Shown here: piece after piece, positions 1,276 through 4,197 of the stretch
Numbering within the stretch: the stretch's first letter is position 1
How the letters are laid out: each line of letters begins with the position of its first letter
DNA from: an uncultured bacterium
Lineage (GTDB): Bacteria > Patescibacteria > JAEDAM01 > Absconditabacterales > Absconditicoccaceae
NCBI GenBank assembly: GCA_903904545.1
Contig: CAIVDB010000043.1
Span: 1 to 8,049, forward strand
Direction: 5' to 3'
Length of the DNA: 8,049 nt
Notes under the pieces: model-generated
What the model was told of the DNA's origin: nothing
Seen by the model: only the letters and a program-made list of their open reading frames with translations
The model's database searches: none
Program-made: the position numbers and the translations under genes

Positions 1276-4197
1276 TTACTTTTCATTCATTCTTATTTTT
1301 TTTATCTCATATTCTATCCTTTCTATTTCGTCCTTTATTTGTTTCATTTCTTCTTTTTTTTGTTCTATTGCTTTCTTGTTTCCTCATTGTAATGATAATT
1401 GTCCTGCTATCTTTCTGATGTTTTGTAATTTTTCTTGTTTCCTTATGATCTCCTGTTCTCGTTCTATATAATTATTTTGTTTGATAGGTTTTCCTATGCC
1501 TCTAACACCGATTGTTACGTCAATGATTGTGTCTATTTCGTATTTTGCTAGATCTTTTTCGTTGTCTATATATTGAATTTCATTGGTGTATAAGAGTTTT
1601 TGTATGATATCTTCATGTTCTTTCATGTATTGTTGGAAGTCTATAGAAGCACTGATACAGATATCTATCTTTTCGTGTTTTGGTTTCTGAATAGCCTCTC
1701 TTAGATGATGAAGTTTATCTATGATATCCATAAATATTTGTGTTTTGTAGTTTTTATGGATGTATGTAAGTTTCGGTATATAAGTGTTTGTAGTAATATC
1801 TCATTTGAAATTATATAACTTTCGTATTTTTTCTGTAACAAAGGGAAGTAATGGATGAAGTAATTTGAGTAGTATTGCTACTCCAAAAAGAGCAATATCT
1901 TTCGTCGCTTCTCAAGATCTAATTTTCATAATCTCTAAGTACTTTTCGCAGAAATCATTTCTGATAAATTCCATGAGACGTAAAGAAAACTCTTGAATCT
2001 TGTCTTTTTCTAAAATTTCTGGTAAGTCATCGTAGAATTCTTGTATTTTGTTGAGTATTCGATGTTCGTGATTTAATCCTTTTTTACTCTTTTTCTCTAT
2101 GGTATTCGCCAATATACTGATGTCTATCTTTTCCTGTCATAATTTTTTATGTTGTTCTTTGAGATGCTGTAGAATAAATCTGCAGGCATTCCGTGTTTTG
2201 TTGATAAATCAGAGATATTCTTCCCCTTCTCCTCATTTCCATTTTTCTCAAGAAAGGAGATGCTCTTGTATAAGACAAAGTCTTGTCGCATCATTACCCC
2301 ATTTTTTGATCATCTCTTTGTATATATCTTGGTCAATAATTGACTGTGATGTATGTATATATATATTTTGGATAGGAGTTTCTCAATAGATCGTCTTTGC
2401 TAAGAGTAATGTTTTGATAATCATATTTTTGTCTTCTTCTTGAATATGTATAAGAGTCCTCTCTGCTTGCATCCCTTTTTGTATCCCTGCATTCTCTAAT
2501 ATGTTCCGTGCTGTAGAAAATGTTGTATCAATTCTTTCTGTGCTGATTTGTAGCTGAGTATCGCTCTTGGTAAATACTTTTGCATTGAAATAATATTCTC
2601 CTCACTTTTGATCTATAATAGCAATGCTTTTTTCTAATATATTCATAAGTTGAGCGCTACACTTTTCTAGGTGATTTATACTATTGTCCTTTTGTCCATA
2701 TTCAAATATCTTTTTTAATTCCTGTACCTCACTAGCATATCCTCTAGGAATTTGTGTTTCTATCATCATCAGATATTTTTCTCCAAAGAGCATAGTGTCT
2801 TCATCATCCTTCTTGAAGAGTAATTCAATCAATTCTTCTATTGAGAATTCTATAGGTAGACGACCATCTTGGATCATATTTATTATAATCATCGCAAGGA
2901 TGTGTTTTTTGTTTTTTCTTATCTTTTGTGGAAGCGTGAAGATATCAGTGTCTATAATAAAAAATATCTCTCATTTCTCATTTTTCCATGCTGGGAATGG
3001 AATTCCAAGTCAGTCCTTTTTGCTTATTGCCCAGCTATTTTTGATTCAATTCTCCATACTTGTCTCTATGATGTTTTTGTAATTCTCTGGTGAAACATTT
3101 ACCTCTTTCATGATCTCGGATACCATGTTTTCTTCTTGGCTGTAGGCAAAAAATCGTTGTTCACTAATAACTGCTTCTAGCGTTTCTTTGGATTGTTTAT
3201 CTATGGGGAGTATGATTTCAGCATCTTCTGTCCCTTGAAGATTATGTATGTCATCTAGATTCTGTATAATGTTCTCGAAAAAATCTTTTACAGTTTTTCC
3301 GCAAAAATCTCCTGCTAATGTTGTGAAACATCAGTTATGGTCTATGGCAAAATTATGAGTCTCGAGTTTATGTTTTTTTGCTATTTCTAGGCTTCGGGTA
3401 TCATGACAAGGACATACTCTCATGACTCCATTGTTTTTGGTTGTGTCTACAGTTTCTTCTCATATGATAGGTATAGTTTTGTTGACGATAGGTATGATTA
3501 CCTTATGTCCGATTAGCTTTTTGTATCTTCTGTCGTCTGGATGTACTGCTAGGGCTACATCTCAAAAAATATTTTCTGGACTTGCTGTAGAGACAATTAA
3601 TGTAATATTTTTTGTGTCTACAAAATATCTTATATTATATATTGTTCATTTTGTTTTTTTTCGCAGAATGTCTTCTGGTGAAACGTGTGTTTGACGTTTG
3701 TTGCTTCGATAATTGATCATATCTTGTTTCTGGATATATCATTCTTTTACTAATTGTCCTATTGCATTTCTAACTTTGCGCATATATGTTGCTCAAAATG
3801 TCGTAGTTCATATTTTTTCATCACAGGCACATCCTGCTTGGATATATTCTTTCATTCGTTTATCCTTTTGCTTATGAAGATCTTGTTCTCGTTGTTCTTG
3901 TTTGTATGTTTTTTGATTTGGTTGTATCGTTCAATAATTGAAACATGGAATATATCAAACCTTCTTCCCTGTCATCGTTAAGTATCTCTTATAGGTATCT
4001 TGTTTGAGTGTATCTGGAAAATCCTCCCAAATTTTTGTTTGAGTTTCTATACGTACCGGTGATCGTAAAAGATGTACCGTATTTTTTTCTTTGTTTTTTT
4101 TGATTTCTGGTGTGTGATATATCTTCCCTCTCTGCTGTGTGCTGAGAATTTCTTGTTGAATACTTTCAGGAGAATATTTTTTTGAAAAATCAAACAT
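1276..4197 (-). CDS. Valyl-tRNA synthetase homologue lacking HIGH and KMSKS (probable inactive paralogue)
   Basis: I checked the 973-aa frame triplet by triplet; it contains no TAA or TAG, and about 21 of its roughly 47 Gly codons are UGA. In order, it shows a ValRS-like N-terminus (about 1-180), a CP1 editing domain (about 185-330), and the post-CP1 strand matching ValRS CISRQLWWGHRIPAWY as WAISKKDGLGIPFPAW (389-404). These are followed by an insertion of about 120 residues, the second Rossmann half (about 550-640), a helical anticodon-binding domain with LHPLLPFVTEKI (780-791), and a C-terminal coiled coil (about 905-973). Catalytic motifs are gone: the HIGH position reads about KIWE (55-58), GTDHAG reads CFNYGT (85-90), DTWFSS reads DTTFST, and the KMSKS loop is missing between IYIH (612-615) and GNDATRL (634-640). 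The editing motif GDVALAVHPDD (212-222) is kept. It therefore should not charge tRNA; editing, tRNA binding or a regulatory role are inferences. ATG 4197 is chosen; an in-frame TTG at 4230 would add 11 residues. No Shine-Dalgarno sequence is seen. Confidence 0.88.

Follow-up and report, generated by a model that had tools for sequence, protein, structure and literature searches.

What keeps a full-length valyl-tRNA synthetase (ValRS) homologue in a genome when the motifs that would activate valine are gone from it? The question is raised by a gene in the 8,049-nt stretch of DNA analysed here (positions 1 to 8,049, called the window; Table 1). In what follows, D denotes this putative charging-dead paralogue and its orthologues, B the intact ValRS of the same class that share an insertion with D, and V ordinary bacterial ValRS. 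A sequence-only reading had described the gene as a full-length ValRS homologue that has lost HIGH, GTDHAG and KMSKS, and this description holds. D falls below the curated cut-offs for valine--tRNA ligase (268.2 against 612.1 bits for TIGR00422, 271.4 against 704 bits for NF004349), and the HIGH and KMSKS signature motifs of that enzyme are missing from it. The ValRS fold is kept, with CP1, the anticodon domain and a C-terminal coiled coil, the last seen in the predicted model only; the structural match of the model to Thermus thermophilus ValRS (1gax) stops at residue 900. Among the VIA-align rows for D, ValRS comes first (28.3), with LeuRS (27.9), IleRS (27.1) and MetRS (26.7) near behind.

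Table 1. Features of the D locus, in window positions; D-D and B-B give the mean pairwise identity within each type.
Feature	Position	Strand	Remarks
D (P0001), putative catalytically dead ValRS paralogue, 973 aa	1276..4197	-	UGA = Gly
D residues 1-181, decayed half of the Rossmann domain that once held HIGH/GTDHAG	3655..4197	-	borders by eye from motifs; identity D-D 0.207, B-B 0.551
D residues 182-350, CP1 editing domain	3148..3654	-	best conserved part; Arg260/Ser269 at T. thermophilus K270/D279
D residues 413-560, insertion common to D and the intact B-type ValRS of the class	2518..2961	-	
D residues 561-662, decayed half of the Rossmann domain that once held KMSKS	2212..2517	-	identity D-D 0.177, B-B 0.623
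D residues 663-800, anticodon-binding domain (Anticodon_1)	1798..2211	-	K667/N670/R673 retained
D residues 801-973, C-terminal domain and two long helices (909-936, 941-972)	1279..1797	-	helices coiled-coil-like
F2, Ig/Fn3-like domain protein with a predicted C-terminal helix of transmembrane length	4265..5965	-	directly upstream of D, gap 67 bp
F3, 171-aa protein with hydrophobic N-terminal segment	5973..6488	-	upstream of F2, gap 7 bp

Two ways of explaining the motifs away by a different reading of the DNA were rejected. Plus-strand or table 11 readings of D meet stops all along, and recoding between Arg and Trp is not the source of the motif loss, since taking CGA/CGG as Trp restores no HIGH, GTDHAG or KMSKS. 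As a separate observation, CGA/CGG codons match Trp positions of relatives at codons 348 and 669 of D and codons 364 and 457 of F2 (A3 row), and judging from these sequences the host organism probably reads CGA/CGG as Trp, as has been reported for Absconditabacteria (PMC8629427).

The gene is not confined to the window. A protein search with D gave 170 matches among 7996 scored candidates, and among the best 120 of the 170 are 70 proteins (P0002-P0073 minus the intact P0067 and P0070; the count takes in fragments and the unplaced P0072) that have neither a GTDHA nor a KMSKS pattern, with HxGH in three. A scan of GTDB genomes confirmed 353 relatives, the best 80 of which were kept; its best 17 loci (L001-L017) consist of 13 D genes and four intact B genes from SR1, Gracilibacteria, Absconditabacteria, Patescibacteria or unnamed bins, the complete genome RAAC1_SR1_1 among them, and the other 63 are weaker matches taken for ordinary ValRS. 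D occurs in at least 24 of the 192 genomes of a class sample; three from outside it (G001, G008, G013) bring the D genomes to 27, most of which look like metagenome bins, and the window makes 28 loci. At E <= 1e-75, a cut-off that would miss very divergent D, G007 was the only genome of a 379-genome phylum sample with a D match; a match in G024 covers residues 3-406 only and was not counted as D.

GTDHAG and KMSKS are missing from all 37 aligned D members, while HxGH is retained in some of them (D_G009, P0059, P0060, D_G150). HxGH was likewise observed, without GTDHAG or KMSKS, at L009, at L134 and in the N-terminal part of L017. The members that retain it suggest an order of motif loss inside the D clade, and a residual nucleotide-binding role is possible for them. 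Two trees of 54 and 57 rows (IQ-TREE, mixture model; quick search; SH-aLRT as the only support; rooted by choice on ordinary ValRS) both recover D as one clade (support 100; 34 rows in one tree) nested in a D+B group (support 100). Several D branches are long, with a program warning, and the order inside the clade is unsure. The most divergent members, G078, G057 and G038, have very long branches; G078 and G057 keep the Asp at position 279. In G078, D stands near F18 and F19 genes, whose relatives lie beside intact B genes in L011 and L122, and this neighbourhood hints that D descends from an ancestral valS locus.

A further ValRS gene is present in 26 of the 27 D genomes, the exception being G187 (0.7 Mb), in which none was found. 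In 21 of the 27 a ValRS of the PRK13208 type, which we take to be the archaeal type, lies over the family cut-off (in a control panel of 14 genomes, four archaea included, four pass it). In G008 such a gene runs off a contig end (725.8 of 738 bits), G003 and G038 have V-type enzymes (983.5 and 1089.5 bits), and G013 and the complete genome G015 have a B-type ValRS beside D. That D itself goes on charging tRNA with altered motifs is very improbable: its full fold is retained and a few members keep HxGH, but GTDHAG and KMSKS are gone from every aligned member, the catalytic segments have decayed and nearly all D genomes own another ValRS gene. As a side observation on G003 C16 (L081) and G038 C1 (L169), the two D genomes stand far apart in the D tree, yet their ordinary ValRS are closely related and contain in-frame TGA; the valS contig of G003 is sister to that of G038 in the trees, and this shared valS could be due to transfer or to a binning error.

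In the class sample PRK13208 passes its cut-off in 22 of the 192 genomes, and the 20 of these with in-frame TGA all have D; in the two without in-frame TGA (G019, G039) no D was seen. The matches listed for nine genomes that have B but no PRK13208-type ValRS over cut-off include no D, and none was found in 25 genomes of the class that have in-frame TGA, lack a PRK13208 type over cut-off and each show a single ValRS-like place (E <= 1e-15, two segments of one gene). In a 26th such genome, G194, the search gave nothing more than the D-like C-terminal fragment of a gene cut at the end of its contig (C155:18-290); with a near relative of F2 on another contig (C205:4675-6252), this is probably one more D locus, broken up. 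From this co-occurrence, and with no D seen in the B-only and single-ValRS genomes, D can be said to go with the PRK13208 type; it is also retained in a few lineages whose charging enzyme is of another kind.

A gene without its catalytic motifs could simply be decaying. A fast-diverging catalytic part and breaks at two of the 28 loci would fit such a pseudogene, but one break lies beside an A run (L010) and the other at N runs (L017), the remaining 26 are unbroken, and over seven genome pairs D has a dN/dS of 0.02-0.20, with dS saturated in several of them. In the usable pair G002-G007 the ratio is 0.112 for D versus 0.083 for the working ValRS, and in G013-G015 0.198 versus 0.092. The dN of D is higher than the working enzyme's in four pairs (e.g., 0.162 versus 0.073 in G005-G007, 0.202 versus 0.049 in G013-G015) and is the lower one in the other three (0.095 versus 0.162 in G001-G007, 0.125 versus 0.175 in G001-G002, 0.137 versus 0.391 in G006-G007). 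Neither an interrupted frame nor relaxed selection, the marks of a pseudogene, thus characterises D, and decay is scarcely credible as its explanation. The sequence-only reading had proposed a repurposed ValRS paralogue maintained by selection, and had named as counter-evidence a genome with no other valS, recoverable HIGH and KMSKS equivalents, or orthologues full of frameshifts; the proposal is borne out by the other valS genes of the relatives and by dN/dS, the window holds no equivalents of HIGH or KMSKS, and interruptions stay at the two loci named. That D is a charging-dead ValRS paralogue under selection we regard as almost certain.

Which parts of D selection has kept is seen from mean pairwise identities, calculated over 14 B rows and every aligned D row but the broken D_G017 (36 of 37), between domain borders drawn by eye. 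No other part of D is conserved nearly as well as CP1 (0.451 among D, 0.564 among B), for which a structural or protein-protein role could be the reason. The C-terminal domain (0.291 and 0.298) and the coil (0.282 and 0.353) are held nearly as well as in B; the insertion stands at 0.232 and 0.368 and the anticodon domain at 0.270 and 0.434, and the three catalytic segments have decayed (0.186 versus 0.520 for the one not in Table 1). At the level of single residues, counted in T. thermophilus numbering over 35 D and 13 B rows after removal of two near-duplicates among the D rows and of one B row, N584 (35/35), R587 (34/35) and K581 (25/35, with Gln in 8/35) are kept on the anticodon side. In CP1, H275 (29/35), D276 (31/35), T272 (22/35) and T214 (22/35) are kept to varying degrees and R216 in 4/35. 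K270, a Lys in all 13 B and in 10 other ValRS, is Arg in 31/35 D, and D279 is lost in 33/35 and retained in 2/35; some of the W at this position may stem from source translations that read UGA as Trp.

The last two changes bear on proofreading. In IleRS, mutation of the Asp homologous to D279 lowers deacylation 10^4-fold, and ValRS is said to use the residue alike, according to the portion of PMC4861432 drawn on here. Because D279 is lost and its IleRS counterpart is worth so much, D is, as far as sequence can tell, probably dead not only for charging but also for ordinary proofreading. The same residue weakens a suggestion of the sequence-only reading, namely that D is a trans-editing factor: in the classical form D would capture Thr-tRNA-Val released by the working ValRS and hydrolyse it in CP1. 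The conservation of CP1, with H275 and D276 in place, and the retained anticodon-binding fold speak for it, but the Asp that anchors the amino group in classical CP1 trans-editing is missing from nearly all members, K270 has mostly become Arg, and the PRK13208-type ValRS, read by eye, appears to keep an editing-site Asp of its own, all of which renders classical trans-editing rather improbable. The two other roles that reading proposed, tRNA chaperone and regulator, may still apply.

The well-kept C-terminal parts invite another thought. The PRK13208-type enzyme of ~800 aa seems to lack such parts, and D might supply them as a structural partner of the working ValRS, in a heterodimer or as a tRNA-delivery subunit, which would agree with the prevalence of the short PRK13208 type among D genomes. 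However, D also stands beside B-type (G013, G015) and V-type (G003, G038) enzymes and so is not tied to one partner, and D and the working valS are adjacent at none of the listed places, the nearest being ~34 kb apart (G150). We consider this arrangement quite unlikely.

The genes around D offer a further line of evidence. In 27 of the 28 D loci, all but that of G078, F2 is the gene immediately upstream of D and shares its strand; the gap measures 20-157 bp (L017, where N runs hide the start of D, left out). At B loci F2 is directly upstream in none of nine (L016 is cut at its 5' end). The F2 family is class-wide, being present in 172 of 192 genomes at E <= 1e-5; in the eight B genomes of the sample it sits elsewhere, and in G135 it lies ~2.7 kb upstream of B. 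The F2 model is predicted to form a string of beta-sandwich domains followed by a helix of transmembrane length, with a general Ig/Fn3 likeness, and a fold search returned general Ig/Fn3-type matches only, with low TM-scores. F3 is clustered in 16 loci, upstream of F2, and the genes beyond the F3-F2-D trio vary between lineages. The linkage of F2 and D probably means co-expression. It would also suit a role of D as an RNA-binding regulator of its own operon that, like synthetases binding tRNA-like leaders, controls the F3-F2 surface proteins, as the trio holds together where the outer flanks differ. Yet the gaps are short, A+T-rich and of unequal length, for which a structured leader between F2 and D was set aside, no Rfam family was found in the window, and in G078 D is apart from F2; such regulation is unlikely, if somewhat less so than the two roles weighed above. 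No conserved tRNA gene was found beside D in 23 loci scanned (19 D, 4 B).

Other neighbours were noted. A DsbA-like thioredoxin gene (C-P-Y-C), convergent to D, lies after a second ORF with a similar N-terminal stretch (window 24-296 and 306-1187, both +), and members of this DsbA-like family (F1) are found downstream of D in many relatives. Upstream of F3 are an aldo/keto reductase gene (window 6607-7533, -) and a 141-aa ORF without Pfam match (window 7557-7982, -). In G078 a FemAB-like gene follows D (7.9e-22; L209 1776-2672, -); none was found among the other D neighbour families looked through.

Sequence comparison has shown the loss of the motifs, a single origin within intact ValRS, coexistence with another ValRS, purifying selection, retention of CP1 and the C-terminal parts, and linkage to F2. 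The explanation that we favour alongside these results is that D is the former ValRS of the UGA = Gly clade (Absconditabacteria and kin), displaced by another enzyme. Valine activation would have been lost once, in the common ancestor, by parsimony most simply once a second ValRS had become established, and D would then have been kept as a tRNA-binding pseudo-synthetase that no longer charges or classically proofreads tRNA. From its fold and conserved residues, D may bind tRNA, most likely tRNA-Val, through the anticodon-binding and C-terminal parts and present the 3' end to CP1, whose reshaped pocket, with Arg for Lys270 and no Asp279, would hold that end or act on a substrate other than free-amino Thr-tRNA-Val. 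For this statement as a whole we see an even chance. A bolder version, in which CP1 without its amino-group anchor has gained new tRNA-dependent chemistry such as freeing tRNA-Val of N-blocked or alpha-hydroxy acyl groups, is speculative and improbable; if true, a displaced synthetase would have become a tRNA quality-control enzyme of a new class, linked to the making of cell-surface proteins in bacteria whose genetic code is reassigned. Replacement of peptidyl-tRNA hydrolase was rejected as a role for D, as Pth was found in every one of the 23 D genomes tested (out of 27) and in 8/9 B genomes, and for D-Tyr-tRNA deacylase there is no clean complement (Dtd in 8/23 D and 6/9 B genomes). The deacylase (PF02580) was not found in 15 of the 23 D genomes, including G001-G003, G005-G007, G009, G010, G013 and G015.

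D can be read as a natural record of what becomes of an essential synthetase after takeover, charging being lost and the editing module and C-terminal parts retained under lasting selection beside three kinds of working ValRS. Its intermediates, namely the HxGH members, the intact B relatives and a complete genome carrying both genes, allow the retained function and the sequence of losses to be tested directly, in bacteria whose code is reassigned.

Among known proteins, B-type ValRS (e.g., RAAC1_SR1_1 C1:834437-837307, P0070) share the insertion and domain order, and D branches inside their type; unlike D, they keep GTDHA, KMSKS or KFSKS, K270 and D279, as well as HxGH except in P0067 (HAGH), and F2 does not adjoin them. 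Compared with T. thermophilus ValRS (1gax), D has the insertion and neither the activation motifs nor the editing Asp. In the open-licence literature no paper was found that joins Absconditabacteria and valyl-tRNA synthetase, though one may be in print elsewhere, nor any on valyl-tRNA synthetase with editing and pseudoenzyme or on ValRS with Lys270 and Asp279; a term search of a review of duplicated synthetases returned no occurrence of ValRS (PMC9437257). The sequence-only reading had pointed to HisZ, AlaX and YbaK as precedents for synthetase-derived factors. Precedents do exist: AlaX, YbaK and ProXp, in the part of PMC7373986 consulted, are homologous to synthetase editing modules and act beside a working synthetase, as D may, but they are free-standing editing proteins, whereas D is full-length with an altered site. 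Closer than those named, and the nearest known kind according to the sections of the review used here, are LeuRS-I and LeuRS2 (PMC9437257). LeuRS-I of Sulfolobaceae cannot charge tRNA, makes the adenylate and has a disrupted CP1, LeuRS2 of Halobacteria barely charges tRNA, and both retain affinity for tRNA (PMC9437257). Like them, D accompanies another synthetase of its kind as a second class Ia enzyme (26 of the 27 D genomes, one of these with the other gene cut by a contig end), it appears from its lost activation motifs to be charging-dead, and its CP1 site is altered as in LeuRS-I; unlike them, as far as those sections describe them, D is derived from ValRS, bacterial, without GTDHAG and KMSKS throughout the 37 aligned members, best kept in CP1, and placed in a cluster of surface-protein genes.
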